DNA from: Gammaproteobacteria bacterium
Lineage (GTDB): Bacteria > Pseudomonadota > Gammaproteobacteria > UBA5861
Length of the DNA: 64,000 nucleotides
Assembly (NCBI GenBank): GCA_022360445.1
Contig: JAKSCV010000036.1
Coordinates: 124,001-188,000, forward strand
Direction of reading: 5' to 3'
Positions 34,717 to 51,293 of the stretch are shown piece by piece (within the stretch, counting starts at the first letter, position 1; every line of letters starts with the position of its first letter). A program made the translations under genes and the position numbers. Under the pieces are notes generated by a model. That model did no database searches, was not told where the DNA came from, and worked only from the letters and a program-made list of their open reading frames with translations.

Positions 34717-35370
34717 ATGTCCTTAGAACTGATCAGCTTCAAGTTATGTCCTTATGTTCAGCGTTCTGTGATCACGTTGTTATATAAGGAAGTTCCCTTT
34801 GATATTACTTACATTGATCTTAATAACCCGCCTGAATGGTTCCAGGAAATCTCTCCACTGGGCAAAGTGCCGGTCCTGAAAGTAAACGGCGCCGTTTTAT
34901 TTGAGTCCGCTGTGATCAATGAATATATCGATGAAACAACGGGATCTCCACTACACCCGACTGACCCTTTATTACGTGCGCAAAATCGTGCCTGGATTGA
35001 ATACTTTTCAACTATGTTGATGACCCAGTTTCAAATGGTGAATGCGGAAACAGAAGAAGCTTTTGAAGCAAGAAAGAGTGATATGTTGAGCCAGATTCAA
35101 CGGCTGGAGTCCCAGTTGGGCAGCGGGCCTTATTTTAACGGTCAGGATTTTTCATTGGCGGATACGGCTGCTGCGCCGATTTTTACTCGCATGGTGCTGA
35201 TGAATGAGCGGTTAAATTATTTTGATCCAGCCACGGCACCCCATTTTGATCAGTGGGGTCAAACGCTGCTGGCAATGCCGGCGGTGAAAAATTCCGTTGT
35301 TGATGACTTTGATGAGTTGTACATCCATTTTATGAAAAACATGGGAAGCTATATTTCAAGCCGTATTTAA
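34717..35370 (+). CDS. Glutathione S-transferase family protein
   Basis: This is a 217-residue cytosolic protein. The thioredoxin-fold N-domain carries FKLCPYVQRS with a likely catalytic cysteine, the cis-proline KVPVLKV and the glutathione-contact FESAVINEYID. The helical C-domain follows (QDFSLADTAAAPIF). The cysteine active site is like that of omega/SspA-type GSTs, which act as thioltransferases. GGAG lies before the ATG. Confidence 0.9.
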   Translation: MSLELISFKLCPYVQRSVITLLYKEVPFDITYIDLNNPPEWFQEISPLGKVPVLKVNGAVLFESAVINEYIDETTGSPLHPTDPLLRAQNRAWIEYFSTMLMTQFQMVNAETEEAFEARKSDMLSQIQRLESQLGSGPYFNGQDFSLADTAAAPIFTRMVLMNERLNYFDPATAPHFDQWGQTLLAMPAVKNSVVDDFDELYIHFMKNMGSYISSRI

Positions 35371-35676: not shown

Positions 35677-36081
35677 ATGCCCAAAGATGCTCAAGCCATG
35701 CTGGCTGACCCGGGGCCAGATCAGGTTTACCGGGAAGCCTTGAATGCAGGCACATTTCAGATTCAGCAATGTACTGCCTGCAGCAAACACATTTTTTATC
35801 CTCGGCTCGTTTGTCCCCATTGCGGTTCCAATGAAATTGCCTGGGCGTCACCCAGTGGGCAGGGGACCGTTTATTCAACCACGGTTGTCCGTCGCAAGCC
35901 TGAGCGTGGGGGTGACATCAACGTCGCGATGGTTGAATTGGATGAAGGTGTACGCATGATGAGCCGAGTGGAAGGGTTGCCACCTGCTGAGGTAACAATT
36001 GGCCTGCGTGTGACGGCCCGGCTTGTTGAACAGGGTGAAAACAAGCAGGTTATTTTTGAGCCGGCAGGAGGTGCGCAATGA
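35677..36081 (+). CDS. Zn-ribbon OB-fold protein (DUF35), acyl-CoA-binding partner
   Basis: This is a 134-residue protein. The N-terminal rubredoxin-like zinc ribbon is C-T-A-C...C-P-H-C (CTACSKHIFYPRLVCPHCG), followed by an OB-fold (GTVYSTTVVRRKPERG, then VTARLVEQG). DUF35 proteins bind acyl-CoA and pair with thiolase-fold enzymes. Here the next gene is exactly such a protein and the two overlap (ATGA). A strong GGAGG site precedes the start. Confidence 0.92.
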   Translation: MPKDAQAMLADPGPDQVYREALNAGTFQIQQCTACSKHIFYPRLVCPHCGSNEIAWASPSGQGTVYSTTVVRRKPERGGDINVAMVELDEGVRMMSRVEGLPPAEVTIGLRVTARLVEQGENKQVIFEPAGGAQ

Positions 36082-37229
36082 GTCATCCGTTAAGAGGGTC
36101 AACGGCTATTGTAGGGGCGTCGACAGCGGGCCTGGGGGCCTGCCCGGGGCATACAGAGATGGATATCATCGTGACTGCCGCGCACCAGGCATTAGCTGAT
36201 GCTGGCTTGAAAATCACCGATGTTGATGGGTTGTTTTCCTGCTCGACGGTGTATTCGCTGGCGACATTGTCCATTGGTGAATACTTAGGGATTAAGCCCA
36301 AGTTTTCAGACAGTAATCAGATTGGCGGTTCGTCTTTTGTCGGTCACATGCTCACCGCTGCGATGGCGATTCAAAATGGTCTTTGTGAAACTGCATTGAT
36401 TGTGTATGGCAGTAATCAGCGGTCAGCGGCGGGTAAGCTGGTGGGTCTACCGGAGCCAGACTTCTACGAGGCGCCTTACGAGCCAAAACAACCTCCCTCC
36501 AGTTATGCGATGGTCGCTGCGCGGCATATGCATGAGTTTGGCACAACCAGAGAACAGCTCGCGCAAGTCGCCGTGGATGCCCGGCAATGGGCCCGCATGA
36601 ATCCCGAAGCATTTATGCGTGACGAACTCAGCATTGAAGATGTGTTGAATGCCCGGATGGTCAGTGACCCATTGACCGTACGTGACTGCTGTCTGGTGAC
36701 CGATGGTGGGGGTGCGATCGTTATGGTTTCAGCAGATCGTGCCAAAGACTTTCCACACAAGCCGGCTTATGTTTTGGGTGTTGGCATGGCGCATTGGCAC
36801 CGGAATATTTCAGCCATGCCGGATTACACGGTGTCTGCTGCGTCTGAGTCTGGCCCGCGTGCATTTGACATGGCAGGTCTTACGCCTTCCGATGTGGATG
36901 TCCTCGAACTCTACGATGCGTTTACAATCAACACCATTATGTTTTTGGAAGACTTGGGCTTTTGCAAGAAAGGTGAAGGTGGTCCCTTTGTTGCCGACGG
37001 CCACATTGGTCCTGGCGGGAGTACGCCGGTTAATACGAATGGTGGAGGTTTGTCATGCTGTCACCCTGGCATGTACGGCATGTTTACCATTGTCGAAGCC
37101 GTTCGACAACTGCGAGGCCAATGCGCAGAGCGCCAGATTGAAGGGGCTGAAATCGCTTTATCCCATGGTAATGGTGGACGGTTTTCGAGCCAGGTAACGG
37201 CTTTGCTGGGTAGCGAAGCCACTTTGTAA
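36078..37229 (+). CDS. Thiolase-fold protein (lipid-transfer/SCP-x-like), possible aldolase
   Basis: This is a 383-residue protein of the thiolase superfamily, COG0183-like, translationally coupled to the DUF35 gene. The position where thiolases carry the nucleophilic cysteine reads NQIGGSSFVGHMLTAAMAIQ, with serine instead. The C-terminal region is NTNGGGLSCCHPGMYGMFTI. Ltp2-type steroid aldolases share both the lost cysteine and the need for a DUF35 partner, so carbon-carbon retro-aldol cleavage of an acyl-CoA is possible (inference). Conventional thiolase activity is less likely. An acyl-CoA dehydrogenase follows 59 nt downstream. Confidence 0.85.
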   Translation: MSHPLRGSTAIVGASTAGLGACPGHTEMDIIVTAAHQALADAGLKITDVDGLFSCSTVYSLATLSIGEYLGIKPKFSDSNQIGGSSFVGHMLTAAMAIQNGLCETALIVYGSNQRSAAGKLVGLPEPDFYEAPYEPKQPPSSYAMVAARHMHEFGTTREQLAQVAVDARQWARMNPEAFMRDELSIEDVLNARMVSDPLTVRDCCLVTDGGGAIVMVSADRAKDFPHKPAYVLGVGMAHWHRNISAMPDYTVSAASESGPRAFDMAGLTPSDVDVLELYDAFTINTIMFLEDLGFCKKGEGGPFVADGHIGPGGSTPVNTNGGGLSCCHPGMYGMFTIVEAVRQLRGQCAERQIEGAEIALSHGNGGRFSSQVTALLGSEATL

Positions 37230-37288: not shown

Positions 37289-38422
37289 ATGGATGAACAG
37301 GCATTTCGACTTGAAGTCAGGCAGTTTATTCACAAGCATTTCCCGGAGGAGTGGCGGTTTCCTTCTTACCGGTTAAGCCTGAGAAAAACAGAGTCTTGGC
37401 AGCGTATGCTGCATGAAAAGGGTTGGGGGGCACCGAGCTGGCCTAAAGAGTATGGCGGCATGGGGCTCAACCCTTATGAACAGATCATTTTCCAGGATGA
37501 GATGGATAAGGCCGGTGTCAACATTGCACCAAATGCCGGGATCACTATGCTGGGCCCGCTATTAATCCGCTATGGAAACGAGGAACAGAAGAAGGCGTAT
37601 CTCTCCGATATCATGAGTGGTAAGACGATCTGGGCACAGGGTTACTCAGAGCCCGGCGCTGGTTCCGACCTGGCGAACTTACGTACTTCAGCGGTTTTGG
37701 ATGGTGATCATTTTGTAGTCAACGGGCAAAAAATATGGACATCGTTTGCGCACGAAGCGGATATGATCTTTCTGTTGGTCCGCACAGATAAAGATGCGAA
37801 AAAACAGGAGGGCATCAGCTTTCTGCTGGTGGATATGAAGTCGCCAGGCATTACAATCAAGCGCATTACGAATATTTCTGGTCATTCTGAGTTTTGTGAA
37901 GTCTTTTTTGACAATGTACGTGTGCCTCGAGACAGCATGGTCGGAGCGATTAATAAAGGCTGGTCTATGGCCAAGTCGTTATTAGGCTCTGAGCGGATTA
38001 CACTTGGCAGCCCTAAAATTGCTAAATACCCACTCAGTCTTTTAAAAAATCTGGCTGATGATAAAGGTTTGTTTTCAGACCCGGTATTCACGTCCCGTTA
38101 CACCGAAATTAAAATGGATGTTGATGATCTGAATGCTGCATTTGTACGTTTTGCGGATGTTCTGCGTCGAGGTGAGGAGCTTGGTCCAGAGGTCTCGTTG
38201 TTAAAAATCTGGATTACAGAGGCTTTTCAGCGCGTCACAGATGTGCTGGTTGAGTATGCAGGTGAGCACGGTTGTGTGGATGAGATGTTGGCTTTAAGTC
38301 AGGGGTCAACATTGCACCCTGCTAATCAATATTTTATCTCACGGCCCTCTACTATTTATGGGGGTACCAACGAAATTCAGCGAAACATTTTGACCAAGGC
38401 CGTGTTGCAGTTGCCTGGCTAA
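37289..38422 (+). CDS. Acyl-CoA dehydrogenase family protein
   Basis: This is a 377-residue FAD enzyme that introduces the alpha-beta double bond in acyl-CoA. Motifs seen are WAQGYSEPGAGSDLANLRT (FAD/substrate loop), VNGQKIWTSFAH and the C-terminal STIYGGTNEIQRNIL. Length and motifs are as expected for the family. It probably forms one operon with the DUF35 and thiolase-fold genes, with a GGAGG site before its ATG. The substrate is unknown; polycyclic or branched acyl-CoAs are typical for this neighbourhood. Confidence 0.92.
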   Translation: MDEQAFRLEVRQFIHKHFPEEWRFPSYRLSLRKTESWQRMLHEKGWGAPSWPKEYGGMGLNPYEQIIFQDEMDKAGVNIAPNAGITMLGPLLIRYGNEEQKKAYLSDIMSGKTIWAQGYSEPGAGSDLANLRTSAVLDGDHFVVNGQKIWTSFAHEADMIFLLVRTDKDAKKQEGISFLLVDMKSPGITIKRITNISGHSEFCEVFFDNVRVPRDSMVGAINKGWSMAKSLLGSERITLGSPKIAKYPLSLLKNLADDKGLFSDPVFTSRYTEIKMDVDDLNAAFVRFADVLRRGEELGPEVSLLKIWITEAFQRVTDVLVEYAGEHGCVDEMLALSQGSTLHPANQYFISRPSTIYGGTNEIQRNILTKAVLQLPG

Positions 38423-38547: not shown

Positions 38548-38566
38548 CTTAATCAGAGGTTCCTTA
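38548..38566. repeat. Solo end of the MITE-like repeat
   Basis: CTTAATCAGAGGTTCCTTA matches the terminal sequence of the element at 35419-35577 and of 55096-55114. No partner end was found nearby. It overlaps the last codons and the stop of the thioesterase pseudogene. Confidence 0.55.
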
Positions 38567-38995
38567 ACTGAACTGATTGGTTATCGATGCCAATGGCAAT
38601 AACCTTTCCTGTGATGCATACAACGCCGTCGTAGGAAATGGTTGTTTCAACAGTGTATTTTCGCCTGTTTACTTTTGTAATGGTTGCGCGCAAGCCGACA
38701 GGTTTTAGTGGGACAGGTTTGAGATATTTGATGTTCATGGACCCCGTTACCATGAAGAGTTCCCGGCTGAATGTGTCTTCGAATCCAAGTTCTCTGTTGA
38801 GGTAAGCTCGCGCTGCGTTGATGGAATGGCAGTCAATCAAGCCGGAAGAAATGCCTCCGTATAAATCAAGTTGGGTGGCCTACATATAATTTTGGGGTGT
38901 TTAGGTGCAAATAGCCTCATTACCTTCCCAGTAACTTCTGATATGTAAACCGTGGGGATATCCAATCCCCACCTAAAATAGTGATTGGGTGACAT
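38553..38995 (-). pseudogene. PaaI-family hotdog thioesterase, frameshifted
   Basis: The N-terminal half (MSPNHYFRWGLDIP from 38995, reaching PKHPKIICRPPNL) and the C-terminal half (YGGISSGLIDCHSINAARAY and MNIKYLKPVPLKPVGLRATI) lie in different frames. Put together they match the hotdog thioesterases that have a C-F-G-C-G-P-D-N start and a G-G-I-I-A-x-L-I-D-C-H helix. One frame change near 38875 breaks the gene. In the N-terminal part the conserved cysteines are replaced (YFRWGLD). The final residues NL and the stop are encoded by a MITE-like repeat end, so the true C-terminus may also be lost. Confidence 0.72.
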
Positions 38996-46483: not shown

Positions 46484-46667
46484 GATCTATGCACACTCAA
46501 TGGGAAAGTCATGGCCAAGTATACATCAAGCTAAATTAAAGACGCATCGCATCGCATTCGTTAGAATGCAGACATTGAAAGCGCCAGGAAAGAGGTGGTG
46601 ACAATCGGTTGGTTGTGCCGCACAGATGTGCGCGAGAGTTTTTAAAAAACTAGGAGTCATTATCATC

Positions 46668-47759
46668 ATGTCTAAACTCAATCAGTTCTTGTCGGGTGTA
46701 CGTGTCTTGGATTTGACCCGCCATTTGCCGGGGCCGTTGGCCACCTTGTACCTTGCCGATATGGGGGCGGAAGTCATTAAAATTGAGCCACCCACTGGCG
46801 ACGAAGCTCGTTCGCTGGGGCGTAAAAATGCGAATGGACGGACGGATTTTTTCGACGCCATTCAAGCAGGAAAGCGCACCCGAATGATGGACTTTACGCA
46901 AGCCGAAGACGTGGAAGCGTTTATCGAACTGGTGAAAACGGCGGACATCCTCGTCGAGTCATTTCGACCGGGCGTGATGGATAAACTGGGAATTGGTTTC
47001 AAACGCCTGCGTGAGATCAACCCAGGATTGATTTGCTGCTCTTTGCCCGGTTACGGGAGCGGTACACCACTGAGCCATGCTGCTGGACATGATGCCAATT
47101 ACCTGTCCTTGGCGGGTGTTTTAGGAGCAACGGGAGCTGAGGAGAAGCCCTACTATTTTAATCCACCTGTCGCGGATTGCACCGGCTCCTTGACGGCGGT
47201 GACATCTATTCTGGGGGCGTTACAGGCACGTCATCGGACGGGGGAAGGCTGTGAAATCGAAGTGGCTCTTGCCGATGTGGTGATGCCACTGCAAACCATG
47301 ACCATCGCCGAGTTGAACGGAACCGGTCAATCACCCGAGCGGGAGAAGGAGCTGCTCAACGGAGGCGCCGCGTTTTACCGTATTTACGAAACGAAAGATA
47401 AAAAACACGTGATGCTGGGCTCCGTCGAGCCTAAATTCTGGAAAGCCTTTTGCGAAGCGGCGGGCCGTGAAGATCTGATTGCGCGGCAATGGGAACCAAC
47501 ACCCCAAACAAAAATGATCAAAGAACTCGATGCTCTGTTTGCAGAAATGACGCTGGCCGAATGCGAGGAAAAATTTATTCCCGCAGACTGCTGTTTTACG
47601 CCGGTACTGAACTTGCAGGAAGCCTTGGAGTCGCCTTATCACCAAGCACGTCAGCTGGTCCGCAAAGATGATAAGGGGGCTTATCAGGCCCTGTTTCCTG
47701 TTTATGTGGATGGGGAAGCGCCGGCGCTCCGTCCGGAATTGATTGAAGAATCCTCTTGA
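46668..47759 (+). CDS. CaiB/BaiF family CoA transferase
   Basis: This is a 363-residue class III CoA transferase or racemase. The start at ATG 46668 (MSKLNQFLSGVRVLDLTRHL) has AGGAG upstream; an in-frame ATG 14 codons earlier is less likely. Family features are GPLATLYLADMGAEVIKIEP, the CoA-binding LVESFRPGVMDKLGIGF and an aspartate in FNPPVADCTGSLTAVTSI at the catalytic position. It is first in an operon with an MBL hydrolase, thiolase, second CaiB and GFA gene. The similarity to 2-methylacyl-CoA racemases is only suggestive. Confidence 0.92.
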   Translation: MSKLNQFLSGVRVLDLTRHLPGPLATLYLADMGAEVIKIEPPTGDEARSLGRKNANGRTDFFDAIQAGKRTRMMDFTQAEDVEAFIELVKTADILVESFRPGVMDKLGIGFKRLREINPGLICCSLPGYGSGTPLSHAAGHDANYLSLAGVLGATGAEEKPYYFNPPVADCTGSLTAVTSILGALQARHRTGEGCEIEVALADVVMPLQTMTIAELNGTGQSPEREKELLNGGAAFYRIYETKDKKHVMLGSVEPKFWKAFCEAAGREDLIARQWEPTPQTKMIKELDALFAEMTLAECEEKFIPADCCFTPVLNLQEALESPYHQARQLVRKDDKGAYQALFPVYVDGEAPALRPELIEESS

Positions 47760-48766
47760 GCGATCGCCTCAACGTATCTCACCGGAAAAGCCGTTTGCTG
47801 GAAGTGCTACCTGGGATCTTCCAACTGCGGCTGCCGCTGGCTTTTGGCTTGGGGCATTCCAACGCTTATGTCCTTCGCGACGGCGATGCTTGGCTGCTCT
47901 ATGATTGCGGCTACAGTTCAGTTGATTGCCAAGCGGTTTGGCAGGAACTGCTTCAGGATGAGTTACGTGGAGGGGTCGCCCGGATTGTGGTTTCCCACCA
48001 CCACCCTGACCACATGGGCAATGCGCGCTGGCTGCAGCAGGCTACGGAGGCGGAAATTTACATGGCCGATGCAGAAAAACACTGTGCCGAAGTTTATCAC
48101 CAGAGTGACATTGGTGGACAATTTCAGGCCTTTCTGGAAAGGCATGGCATGGGTCGCGCGAGTGCACAGCAAGTGGTTGAGCAATATGTCCAGAGCCAGC
48201 TGACTTCCCCTTTGCCAGAAAGAACACAACCGATTAAGGCCGGGGATATTTTCGCCGCGGGTTCTTACCGTTTCCAGGCGTATATGCTGGGTGGGCACAG
48301 TGATGCGCAGGTCATCTTATTTGATGCTGAAACCGGGGCAGCCTTGGTGAGTGACCACCTCCTGCAGTTTATTACGCCGAATATCGCGCTATGGCCCTAT
48401 GGCGACCGTAAGCCACTGACTAGCTATTTCGAAAGCCTGGAAGTATTAAAAGGTTTGAATATTCAAACCGTACTGCCTGGACACCACAAGGTTTATCGTG
48501 CAGCGGGTCATCGCATTGAACAGCTGAAAGCTCATCACAGAGATTTGTTGGAAAAAATAGAAAATCATTTAGTGGGCAAGCTGAGTGCTTTTGATCTGGC
48601 GGCCCGAGTGTTTGGGACAACCATTTTTCGTGAAACGCGTTTTGTGCTGCATAAAATGCTGGCTCAGCAGGAAGTACTGTCTCATTTGCAGTATCTTAAC
48701 TCAACGGGCCGGGTGCTCAAAAATGAAGACGATCGTGTCTATTGGCAAACAGCACCATCGCTTTAG
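47756..48766 (+). CDS. MBL-fold metallohydrolase
   Basis: This is a 336-residue metallo-beta-lactamase-fold hydrolase. The TTG start overlaps the preceding stop (TTGA). The metal site is VSHHHPDHMGNARW, with further ligands in MLGGHSDAQVILF, ALVSDHLL and VLPGHHKVY. The C-terminal helical domain (LEKIENHLVGKLSAFDLAAR) is that of the glyoxalase II/LACTB2-like subgroup. Within the acyl-CoA operon a thioesterase function is plausible (inference). Confidence 0.88.
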   Translation: MSDRLNVSHRKSRLLEVLPGIFQLRLPLAFGLGHSNAYVLRDGDAWLLYDCGYSSVDCQAVWQELLQDELRGGVARIVVSHHHPDHMGNARWLQQATEAEIYMADAEKHCAEVYHQSDIGGQFQAFLERHGMGRASAQQVVEQYVQSQLTSPLPERTQPIKAGDIFAAGSYRFQAYMLGGHSDAQVILFDAETGAALVSDHLLQFITPNIALWPYGDRKPLTSYFESLEVLKGLNIQTVLPGHHKVYRAAGHRIEQLKAHHRDLLEKIENHLVGKLSAFDLAARVFGTTIFRETRFVLHKMLAQQEVLSHLQYLNSTGRVLKNEDDRVYWQTAPSL

Positions 48767-48798
48767 CACGCTTACTTAAAACCATACGGGGAAAAATA

Positions 48799-50034
48799 AT
48801 GGAAGACGTTTACATTGTTGGCGTAGGTATGACGCCATTCGGCAAGTTCCTGGATAAGTCTGTCAAACAACTTACGCGGGAATCAGTCAGCCAGGCGATG
48901 ACGGATACCGGTGCTCGTTTGGCCGATATTGAATCTGCCTACTTTTCAAATACAGGCCAGGGCCATTTTGAAGGCCAGTTAATGGTGGGAGGAGAAGTTG
49001 CTCTGCGCGATATGGGCTTTGAAGGTATTCCCATCGTCAACACCGAAAATGCCTGCGCCAGTGCCAGCACAGCGCTCTACCTTGCCGTTCAAGCCGTTGC
49101 ATCGGGTCAGTCAGAAGTGGCTCTGGCCGTTGGTGCAGAGAAAATGTACAGCAAAGACCGTGAAAAAATGTTCAGTGTTTTTGACGGGGCCTGGGATGTA
49201 GCCACCCCCCAGGCGAACTATGCCAGGCTGGAAGCGCTGGCAGCGGACTTTCCTCGTCCGGGTGGAGAAGAAGAGAGTGGTCAGCGCAGCCTGTTTATGG
49301 ATGTTTATGCGTTTCTTACACGCTACCACATGAAAAATTTTGGGACGACGCAGGAACACTTAGCAATGGTGGCGTCCAAAAACCATTATCATTCCTCGCT
49401 GAATCCACTGTCTCAATTTCAAAACACGATGACCGTGGAAGAAGTCATGCAAGCCAGAGAAGTATCCTGGCCACTCACCTTGCCCATGTGCGCTCCGATC
49501 AGTGATGGCTCGGCTGCGGCGATTATTTGCAATCGCGAAGCATTGGAGCGGTTTGACCGGGCGCGGGCGATAAAAGTCTGTGCCAGCGTGCTGGCCAGTG
49601 GTACGAACCGTAAGCCAGAGGAACATGAAAAGCACCTGTGTCGATTGGCAGCCAATAAGGCCTATGACAAAGCGGGCGTTGGTCCTGAGGACATGTCATT
49701 GGCAGAAGTGCATGATGCAACGGCCTTTGCCGAAATCCTACAAACAGAAAATTTGGGTTTTTGCCCGATTGGCGAAGGCGGTGCACTGGCAGCATCGGGA
49801 GCCACTCGTTTGGGTGGGCGCATTCCTGTCAATGTTTCAGGTGGTTTGGAGTCTAAAGGACATCCAATTGGAGCAACGGGGCTGGCGCAAATCTATGAAA
49901 TGGTCTTGCAGTTGCGGGGTGAAGCGGGTGAACGCCAGGTAGAAGGTACGCAATTCGCCATTGCTGAAAATGGAGGGGGTTTTTACGGGATTGAAGAAGC
50001 CGCCGCCGTGATTACTATTTTGGGGAAACCTTAA
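48799..50034 (+). CDS. Thiolase family protein (SCP-x type)
   Basis: This is a 411-residue thiolase-fold enzyme, probably cleaving 3-ketoacyl-CoA. ATG 48799 (MEDVYIVGVGMTPFGKF) has GGGGA upstream; the longer frame overlaps the previous gene. The nucleophilic cysteine is present in NACASASTALYLAVQAV, and the active-site histidine is in ESKGHPIGATGLAQIYEM. It therefore differs from the cysteine-less thiolase-fold protein at 36078. Here no DUF35 gene is next to it. Confidence 0.92.
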   Translation: MEDVYIVGVGMTPFGKFLDKSVKQLTRESVSQAMTDTGARLADIESAYFSNTGQGHFEGQLMVGGEVALRDMGFEGIPIVNTENACASASTALYLAVQAVASGQSEVALAVGAEKMYSKDREKMFSVFDGAWDVATPQANYARLEALAADFPRPGGEEESGQRSLFMDVYAFLTRYHMKNFGTTQEHLAMVASKNHYHSSLNPLSQFQNTMTVEEVMQAREVSWPLTLPMCAPISDGSAAAIICNREALERFDRARAIKVCASVLASGTNRKPEEHEKHLCRLAANKAYDKAGVGPEDMSLAEVHDATAFAEILQTENLGFCPIGEGGALAASGATRLGGRIPVNVSGGLESKGHPIGATGLAQIYEMVLQLRGEAGERQVEGTQFAIAENGGGFYGIEEAAAVITILGKP

Positions 50035-50057
50035 ACTAACCTGCCAGGTGGAGCGAG

Positions 50058-51293
50058 ATGAAAGCCTCAGATAACGCGCAACAAAAAAAGATGTTGAAGC
50101 AGCCTCTGTCAGGCATTCGTGTTCTGGATATTGCAACGTTCCAGGCGGCACCGCTGGCCGCAACCATTCTCGGGGAGTTTGGTGCGGAAGTGATCAAAAT
50201 TGAGCAACCCGACGGTGGGGACCCCTTGCGGCAGTATGGCACTCTTGACCCGTGTGGTGACTCCTACCTTTGGCTGAGTGAAGCCCGCAACAAAAAATCC
50301 ATCACTCTCAATTTGCGCGAACCGGAAGGTGTCACCTTGTTCAAAAAAATGGTGGCTAAAGCCGATGTTGTCACCGAAAACTTTCGCCCTGGCACTTTGG
50401 AAAAGTGGGGGCTCGGCTACGAAACTTTGCGCGGCATCAATCCCGGGATTGTGATGTTACGGATCTCTGCTTATGGGCAGACAGGCCCTAACAAGGATTT
50501 GCCTGGTTTTGCCCGGGTTGCCCATGCTTTTAGCGGCGTCAGTTACCAGACGGGGGACTCTGACCGTCCGCCGGCCTCACCCGGTATCGCCGGGCTGGGG
50601 GATTATCTGTCTGGTGTATATGGGGCTTTGGGCGTGATGATGGCCTTACGGGCGCGGGAGGTTAACGACGGTATCGGGCAGTTTGTGGATATTGGTTTGT
50701 ACGAGCCTATTTTCCGGATGATGGATGAACTTGCGCCTGCATACGCAAAAACCGGTCAAGTGCGCGAACGCATGGGGGCCGATATTGCGATCGCCTGCCC
50801 TCACAGCCACTATCCAACACAGGATGGAAAGTGGGTGGCGATTGCCTGCTCCAGCGACAAAATGTTTGAACGCTTGGCCGCGGCAATGGGTAAGCCAGAG
50901 ATGGCAGTGGATCACCGCTATGCCAAAGCCCATGCACGGATTGAACGCCGTGACCATATGAATGAGCTTGTCAGCACGTGGACCTCGGCGCAGACACAAA
51001 GCGAGGTGCTGGCCGTGTGTGAAGCGTTTGATGTGCCTTGCGGGCCTGTGCACAGCATTGCAGACATCTTTAATGACCCCCAATATGCCGCTCGTGAGAA
51101 TTTATTGCAGTTGGTGAACACACGGGCCGGGGATGTCGTCTTGCCCGGTATTTTACCGATTTTGTCCGAAACGCCGGGGCAGTTTTCCCACGTTGGTCCG
51201 GCCTTGGGTGAGCACAGCGTGGCTGTGTACGCCGAGCTTTTGGATTTGTCGATGACTGAGCTCAAAACGTTGCGTGAAAAGGGTGTGATTTAG
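50058..51293 (+). CDS. CaiB/BaiF family CoA transferase
   Basis: This is a 411-residue class III CoA transferase. Motifs are LSGIRVLDIATFQAAPLAAT, FGAEVIKIEQPDGGDPLRQ, VTENFRPGTLEKWGLGY and the likely catalytic aspartate in AGLGDYLSGVYGALGVM. It diverges from the other CaiB in the operon, so the two are unlikely to be redundant. The ATG has GGTGGAGCG upstream. A CoA donor such as succinyl-CoA and an unknown acceptor acid are inferred only from the family. Confidence 0.92.
   Translation: MKASDNAQQKKMLKQPLSGIRVLDIATFQAAPLAATILGEFGAEVIKIEQPDGGDPLRQYGTLDPCGDSYLWLSEARNKKSITLNLREPEGVTLFKKMVAKADVVTENFRPGTLEKWGLGYETLRGINPGIVMLRISAYGQTGPNKDLPGFARVAHAFSGVSYQTGDSDRPPASPGIAGLGDYLSGVYGALGVMMALRAREVNDGIGQFVDIGLYEPIFRMMDELAPAYAKTGQVRERMGADIAIACPHSHYPTQDGKWVAIACSSDKMFERLAAAMGKPEMAVDHRYAKAHARIERRDHMNELVSTWTSAQTQSEVLAVCEAFDVPCGPVHSIADIFNDPQYAARENLLQLVNTRAGDVVLPGILPILSETPGQFSHVGPALGEHSVAVYAELLDLSMTELKTLREKGVI

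Follow-up and report, generated by a model that had tools for sequence, protein, structure and literature searches.

The window analyzed here is a 64,000-nucleotide stretch of contig JAKSCV010000036.1 from a gammaproteobacterial genome of the UBA5861 lineage. Its forward strand carries three consecutive genes of interest. The first encodes a DUF35 protein of 134 amino acids with a ChsH2-type zinc ribbon and an OB fold (35677 to 36081, +), and the second a thiolase-fold protein of 383 amino acids (36078 to 37229, +), which belongs to the PRK06158 family, lacks the nucleophilic Cys, and is proposed here to be a retro-aldolase. The ORF coordinates bear out the overlap of the two genes that the sequence-only reading had pointed out: the stop codon of the DUF35 gene and the start codon of the thiolase-like gene share a 4-bp ATGA (36078 to 36081, +), which suggests translational coupling. 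The acyl-CoA dehydrogenase predicted to follow was also found, as an ORF of 377 amino acids (37289 to 38422, +) starting 59 bp past the thiolase-like ORF; it is PimC-like, scoring 298.1 bits against TIGR03204, below the cut-off of 623.85. A GST-domain gene (34717 to 35370) lies upstream of the DUF35 gene, and beyond it are a 146-amino-acid gene and a metallo-β-lactamase-fold gene on the opposite strand. The trio is isolated amid unrelated genes, no hydratase gene adjoins it, and it occupies the same place, at 97% identity, in contig L012, which belongs to the MAG "Halothiobacillaceae bacterium UBA5861". A 4HBT-type thioesterase gene in the window (38553 to 38980) is interrupted by in-frame stops in the first half and looks decayed or affected by sequence errors; it is intact in L012 (158 amino acids). 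A second acyl-CoA cluster (46626 to 51293) consists of genes for a CaiB CoA-transferase, a metallo-β-lactamase-fold protein, a Cys-containing thiolase (48742 to 50034), and another CaiB CoA-transferase.

The thiolase-like protein matched the NCBIfam model NF004811/PRK06158 at 651.3 bits (cut-off 421), which places it in this subfamily, and its gene also matched Pfam PF22691 (Thiolase_C_1). NCBIfam labels PRK06158 "acetyl-CoA acetyltransferase," but judging from the sequence the missing Cys makes the activity claimed in this name improbable. The score against the PRK07855 lipid-transfer model was 250.6 bits (cut-off 469). The BbsB equivalog model gave 166.5 bits (cut-off 750), and with no nucleophilic Cys the protein does not qualify as a BbsAB-type thiolase. 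The DUF35 protein matched PF12172 (zf-ChsH2, 42.3 bits) and PF01796 (OB_ChsH2_C, 60.9 bits), and its PDB relatives, 9myr_B and 6ok1_B, are the corresponding subunits in the structures of the Sal and Ltp2 aldolases. The solved structure nearest to the thiolase-like protein by sequence (phmmer) is 4u4e (376.7 bits), followed by CtSal (9myr, 202.8 bits), TcLtp2 (6ok1, 186.9 bits), and then thiolases such as BbsB (151.7 bits). 4U4E is a structural genomics entry from Sphaerobacter thermophilus titled only as a putative thiolase; it is 48% identical to the window protein in the structural alignment and has the same GGSSFV and HPGMYG motifs, with YDSF at the third.

Two characterized Cys-less relatives, the steroid aldolase TcLtp2–ChsH2 (PDB ID: 6OK1) and the bile acid aldolase CtSal–Shy (PDB ID: 9MYR), share with the window pair the thiolase fold, Gly in place of Cys, the Tyr of a YDxF motif, and a DUF35 partner. 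The absence of a Cys motif at the nucleophile position, where the sequence-only reading saw GGSSFV, was confirmed by the alignment: in the window motif S79-NQIGGSSFV, Gly84 (codon 36327 to 36329, +) aligns with CtSal Gly89. According to PMC12329534, CtSal Gly89 occupies the position of the nucleophilic Cys of SCP-2 thiolases, and this replacement rules out thiolysis in CtSal. The same paper describes mutation evidence that the YDxF Tyr is the base in TcLtp2 and CtSal. It assigns the role of the acid to Tyr344 in TcLtp2 and to Cys304 in CtSal, whose activity is abolished by C304A. Tyr279 of the window protein (codon 36912 to 36914, +; YDAF motif) aligns with these bases, TcLtp2 Tyr294 and CtSal Tyr302. 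Both marks of SCP2-type thiolases are therefore absent, with Gly84 replacing the nucleophilic Cys and Tyr279 replacing the His of HDxF. The correspondence of catalytic tyrosines with Ltp2 holds for this base but not for the other residues, as Ala281 takes the place of TcLtp2 His296 (YDAF instead of YDHF) and His329 that of TcLtp2 Tyr344; the two proteins are 33% identical. Likewise, Ala281 replaces CtSal Cys304 and His329 replaces CtSal Gln352. His329 (codon 37062 to 37064, +; CCHPGMYG) also aligns with the His of the thiolase GHP motif. Since the second catalytic residues of TcLtp2 and CtSal are missing, the YDAF enzymes must use another acid. The DUF35 partner differs from Shy as well: Shy is a MaoC–DUF35 fusion with a Cys3His1 zinc site, whereas the window DUF35 protein is encoded by a separate gene and has a Cys4 set, so it is not of the Shy type.

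The residues at positions 84 and 279 were compared in 129 distinct aligned relatives, which showed Gly/Tyr (105), Cys/His (20), Ser/His (3), and Cys/Ala (1). Gly at the nucleophile site is thus accompanied by Tyr in YDxF in 105 of 105 cases, and Cys or Ser by His in 23 of 24. The three Ser-containing proteins (L126, L132, and L136; NASATGS) keep the His (HDAF), and this different state is perhaps esterase-like or inactive. At positions 281 and 329, the 105 Gly/Tyr rows mostly have Ala/His (70), Ser/His (18), or Cys/His (7); rarer pairs are His/Tyr (TcLtp2 and two others), Ala/Tyr (IpfD, the paralogue L080 of the same genome, and L114), Cys/Gln (CtSal and one other), Cys/Ser (1), and Cys/Gly (1). 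Gly83, Gly84, and Tyr279 are invariant in an alignment of 40 family sequences, as are Asp280, Phe282, Asn319, His329, and the surrounding glycines, although the invariance of His329 is biased because CHPGMYGM served as one seed for the pattern-picked loci. When 26 loci from a whole-genome search without the pattern were inspected (24 distinct from earlier rows), His329 was kept in all 11 of at least 46% identity. Invariance of Tyr279, Asp280, Phe282, Asn319, His329, and the glycines is what a working active site would show, which argues against a noncatalytic lipid- or CoA-binding scaffold, even if Cys-less thiolase folds can be noncatalytic in principle. A thiolase-fold decarboxylase or condensing enzyme has a precedent in TbSLP, a Cys-less protein with the YDxF Tyr for which PMC12329534 gives weak malonyl-CoA decarboxylation; the same paper gives CtSal as having no malonyl-CoA decarboxylase activity. 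We regard this group of explanations, scaffold included, as unlikely.

In 61 of 62 relative loci, a same-strand DUF35 gene is found no more than 300 bp away, upstream in 53 and downstream in 8, and the sole exception (L017) starts at a contig edge. The window DUF35 protein has the complete Cys4 set (Cys32, Cys35, Cys46, and Cys49). Of the 61 relative rows, only 35 to 39 retain any given one of these cysteines; zinc binding is therefore not a general property of the family, and the ribbon was dropped as a family mark. PMC12502768 reports that the aldolase activity of Ltp2 in C. testosteroni requires the DUF35 domain. A PimC-like acyl-CoA dehydrogenase of at least 46% identity is a neighbor in 17 of the 62 loci. 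Neighbors within 8 kb were counted in 66 loci forming 24 groups (L077 to L082 were left out), with labels assigned by BLAST against 75 hand-labeled proteins of annotated plasmid regions, a procedure likely to miss some genes. A MaoC or crotonase hydratase was present in 45 loci (15 groups), an acyl-CoA dehydrogenase in 41 (16 groups), a short-chain dehydrogenase/reductase (SDR) in 52 (17 groups), a CaiB protein in 36 (6 groups), and an aldehyde dehydrogenase in 2 (2 groups). One of the clusters (L086) is presumably PA1016-PA1023-like. The hydratase and dehydrogenase neighbors agree with retro-aldol cleavage of an enoyl-CoA that has been hydrated. The retro-aldol reading is weakened by the frequency of the SDR, which could supply 3-oxoacyl-CoA for thiolysis but could also serve another round of β-oxidation, and by the rarity of aldehyde dehydrogenase genes nearby.

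The frequency of SDR genes bears on the possibility that the protein is, as its NCBI family label says, a thiolase or acyl-CoA acyltransferase, which would cleave 3-oxoacyl-CoA from a neighboring SDR with another nucleophile, e.g., Cys204/Cys205 or Cys327/Cys328. The retained His329 of the GHP motif and the invariance of Cys204 and Cys205 in the 40 family sequences would agree with it. A replacement catalytic Cys was sought in the window protein and its relatives, and none was found. The Cys204/Cys205 pair also occurs in relatives with the ordinary Cys, such as L079 and BbsB, and in Ltp2, and so it does not represent a new nucleophile; Cys327 and Cys328 vary among the relatives. Moreover, a Tyr has taken the place of the HDxF His alongside the loss of the Cys, and we consider the thiolase explanation quite improbable. 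A known thiolase for comparison is BbsAB, the benzoylsuccinyl-CoA thiolase (PDB ID: 7PXP), which shares the thiolase fold, the DUF35 partner, HDAF close to YDAF, and the His of GHP; BbsAB is a thiolase, whereas in the window protein the Cys is absent and Tyr replaces the His. The DUF35 partnership of Cys-containing thiolases also means that a thiolase fold joined to DUF35 does not by itself define Ltp2-type enzymes, a correction to the sequence-only reading.

An AlphaFold2 model of the window protein was built on the 40 family sequences (pLDDT 90.1, pTM 0.92). In structural comparison with VIA-align, the best match was CtSal (Z score 52.8, 1.9 Å over 369 residues), followed by TcLtp2 (Z score 51.2, 2.1 Å over 366), 4u4e (51.0), TbSLP (51.0), and the Cys-containing archaeal acetoacetyl-CoA thiolase 6esq (50.4). 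The ranking of the predicted model favors Cys-less members, but the gaps are small and the fold alone does not decide the chemistry; fold comparison was rejected as a discriminator of aldolase and thiolase because the Z scores overlap. A phylogenetic tree was calculated from 65 rows, comprising 24 Cys/Ser rows, 23 PRK06158/PRK08142 rows chosen from a larger set, and 18 other Gly/Tyr rows. All 24 Cys/Ser rows are on one side of a single branch (support 100/100), so that the Cys-to-Gly and His-to-Tyr changes were fixed on one branch. With one ancestral change, the 105 Gly/Tyr rows do not amount to 105 independent tests. The 23 PRK06158/PRK08142 rows group together (support 100/98), and the window protein falls in this clade of its own, outside the Ltp2 and Sal branches.

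IpfD and IpfE of ibuprofen degradation (pIBU218) also resemble the window pair: IpfD has no nucleophilic Cys, has YDAF, carries Gly and Tyr at the coupled sites, and is encoded next to an OB-fold gene. Their acyl-CoA cleavage releases propionyl-CoA. IpfD is needed for ibuprofen degradation, and its cleavage step has been termed retro-aldolase (PMC9195938). IpfD differs from the window protein in having EGST instead of GGSS and Tyr at the position of Ltp2 Tyr344 (35% identity), and IpfE, as judged by eye, does not have the zinc-ribbon Cys set of the window DUF35 protein. A gammaproteobacterial genome encodes an IpfD-like protein (L114; L091 3640-4827) with EGSS, YDAFSY, and GYYLQG, which is the next of kin to IpfD.

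The genome from which the window derives (G000; 3.46 Mb, 97.9% complete) encodes 11 homologues of the window protein, of which seven are Gly/Tyr (the window protein, L074 to L078, and L080) and four are Cys/His (L010, L079, L081, and L082). A paralogue on contig C88 (66% identical) is accompanied by PimD-like and PimC-like acyl-CoA dehydrogenases and its own DUF35 gene, with a convergent MaoC gene nearby, and one on C30 has two MaoC-type hydratase genes directly 5' of the aldolase and DUF35 genes. In function, these gene sets match the ChsE1E2/ChsH1H2/Ltp2 module described in PMC12502768. The genome also has, by motif, an Ltp2-like Cys-less paralogue (L080, C63:12874-13941; YDAF with GYTHG) and a Sal/SLP-like one (L078, C85:241137-242273; YDCF), each with a DUF35 gene. 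These separate paralogues, the 33% identity, and the best structural Z scores with Sal and Ltp2 are the grounds on which the window protein might be taken for a steroid side-chain aldolase, that is, a proteobacterial Ltp2 or Sal. Its position outside the Ltp2 and Sal branches and the loss of their second residues speak against this, and so does the gene content. Neither KshA (PF19298, KshA_C) nor the ring-hydroxylating dioxygenase alpha subunit (Ring_hydroxyl_A, PF00848) was found in G000, and no HsaC-like dioxygenase exceeded the cut-off of TIGR03213; at 97.9% completeness, the genome therefore lacks the usual aerobic route for steroid rings. The KshA search was positive in a control genome (L035 genome) and found none in a MAG labeled Novosphingobium sp. 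Chol11 (L047 genome). A steroid substrate is thus unlikely, and we hold an Ltp2- or Sal-type assignment to be very improbable.

The sequence-only reading advised a search for sterol or terpenoid genes elsewhere in the genome. G000 has two AtuA-family genes, one of which is ~14 kb from the C88 paralogue. It also has 14 acyl-CoA carboxylase β (carboxyltransferase) subunits (PF01039, E ≤ 1e-60), whereas 74 other genomes of the class have 0 to 3 each in the same search, an unusual expansion for 3.46 Mb. At about 45 to 66 kb of contig C34 (L144 and L143) are genes for a biotin carboxylase, a small biotin carrier, and two carboxyltransferases, together with a branched-chain-type ABC importer, a CoA ligase, an AtuA gene, and two acyl-CoA dehydrogenases; this stretch is an Atu-like acyl-CoA carboxylase cluster. 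The AtuA genes and the carboxylase β expansion point to branched or isoprenoid acids but name no substrate. The sequence-only reading had suggested a side-chain-cleaving module for a branched or polycyclic compound; a branched or isoprenoid acid would fit the genome, whereas a steroid is contradicted by the genes it lacks.

Here, we propose that the Cys-less thiolase-fold protein and its DUF35 partner probably act as a retro-aldolase. Tyr279 corresponds to the base of TcLtp2 and CtSal, the two characterized Cys-less relatives, which makes this the best reading. It is supported by the Gly84/Tyr279 signature, by a place in the tree beside Cys-less DUF35 partners, of which the two assayed ones are retro-aldolases, and by the dehydrogenase and hydratase neighbors in relatives. 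The acyl-CoA aldolase idea of the sequence-only reading is retained in this form; its equivalence to Ltp2 is not, given Ala281, His329, and the separate clade. The two proteins would form one enzyme that converts a β-hydroxyacyl-CoA to a carbonyl compound and acetyl- or propionyl-CoA. The analysis itself shows the sequence, the residue coupling, the tree, the model, the gene order, and the genome content, from which the complex, its reaction, what Tyr279 and His329 do in it, and the substrate are inferred. The acyl-CoA dehydrogenase (37289 to 38422) would produce 2-enoyl-CoA, to which a hydratase encoded elsewhere would add water. Tyr279 may then take the β-hydroxyl proton, with the hydroxyl oxygen placed in the space of the lost Cys near Gly84. 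Upon cleavage of the C–C bond, the CoA enolate would be held or protonated with the help of His329, inherited from the thiolase ancestor. The likeliest substrates would be branched or alicyclic acyl-CoAs that are blocked at the β carbon for normal β-oxidation, not steroids. A bolder scenario, which we advance as a tentative and rather doubtful one, is that a single ancestral swap of the nucleophilic Cys to Gly and the HDxF His to Tyr made an aldolase of a thiolase, and that PRK06158 is a third mechanistic class. This class would have kept the thiolase His, now serving as an acid on the enolate side or as an oxyanion residue, whereas Ltp2 and Sal would later have replaced it by Tyr and Gln, respectively. 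The window enzyme might accordingly split 3-hydroxy-3-methylacyl-CoA into a methyl ketone and acetyl-CoA, a carboxylation-free way past a β-methyl branch.

To our knowledge, no member of the PRK06158 clade has been assayed, and no such assay appeared in the literature searched, which omits most subscription journals. The window gene belongs to a widespread and poorly named family and is not special to this locus. Matches at E ≤ 1e-60 are present in 16 of 369 genomes of the class, including its own, and 495 plasmid records matched at 1e-20. Identity was 60 to 80% for 50 of these records, and the weaker ones may include Cys thiolases. Plasmid annotations from many genera label the family acetyl-CoA acetyltransferase or thiolase. 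What is new is that the DUF35-coupled thiolase-fold aldolases appear to include a third group, which is large and is marked by the pair Tyr279/His329. If its members are retro-aldolases, many predicted β-oxidation pathways misassign the bond-breaking step, and the product is a carbonyl compound, not a shorter acyl-CoA. The strict split between Gly/Tyr and Cys/His would provide a simple two-residue rule separating aldolase from thiolase chemistry, and it makes the change from thiolase to aldolase directly testable by mutation.
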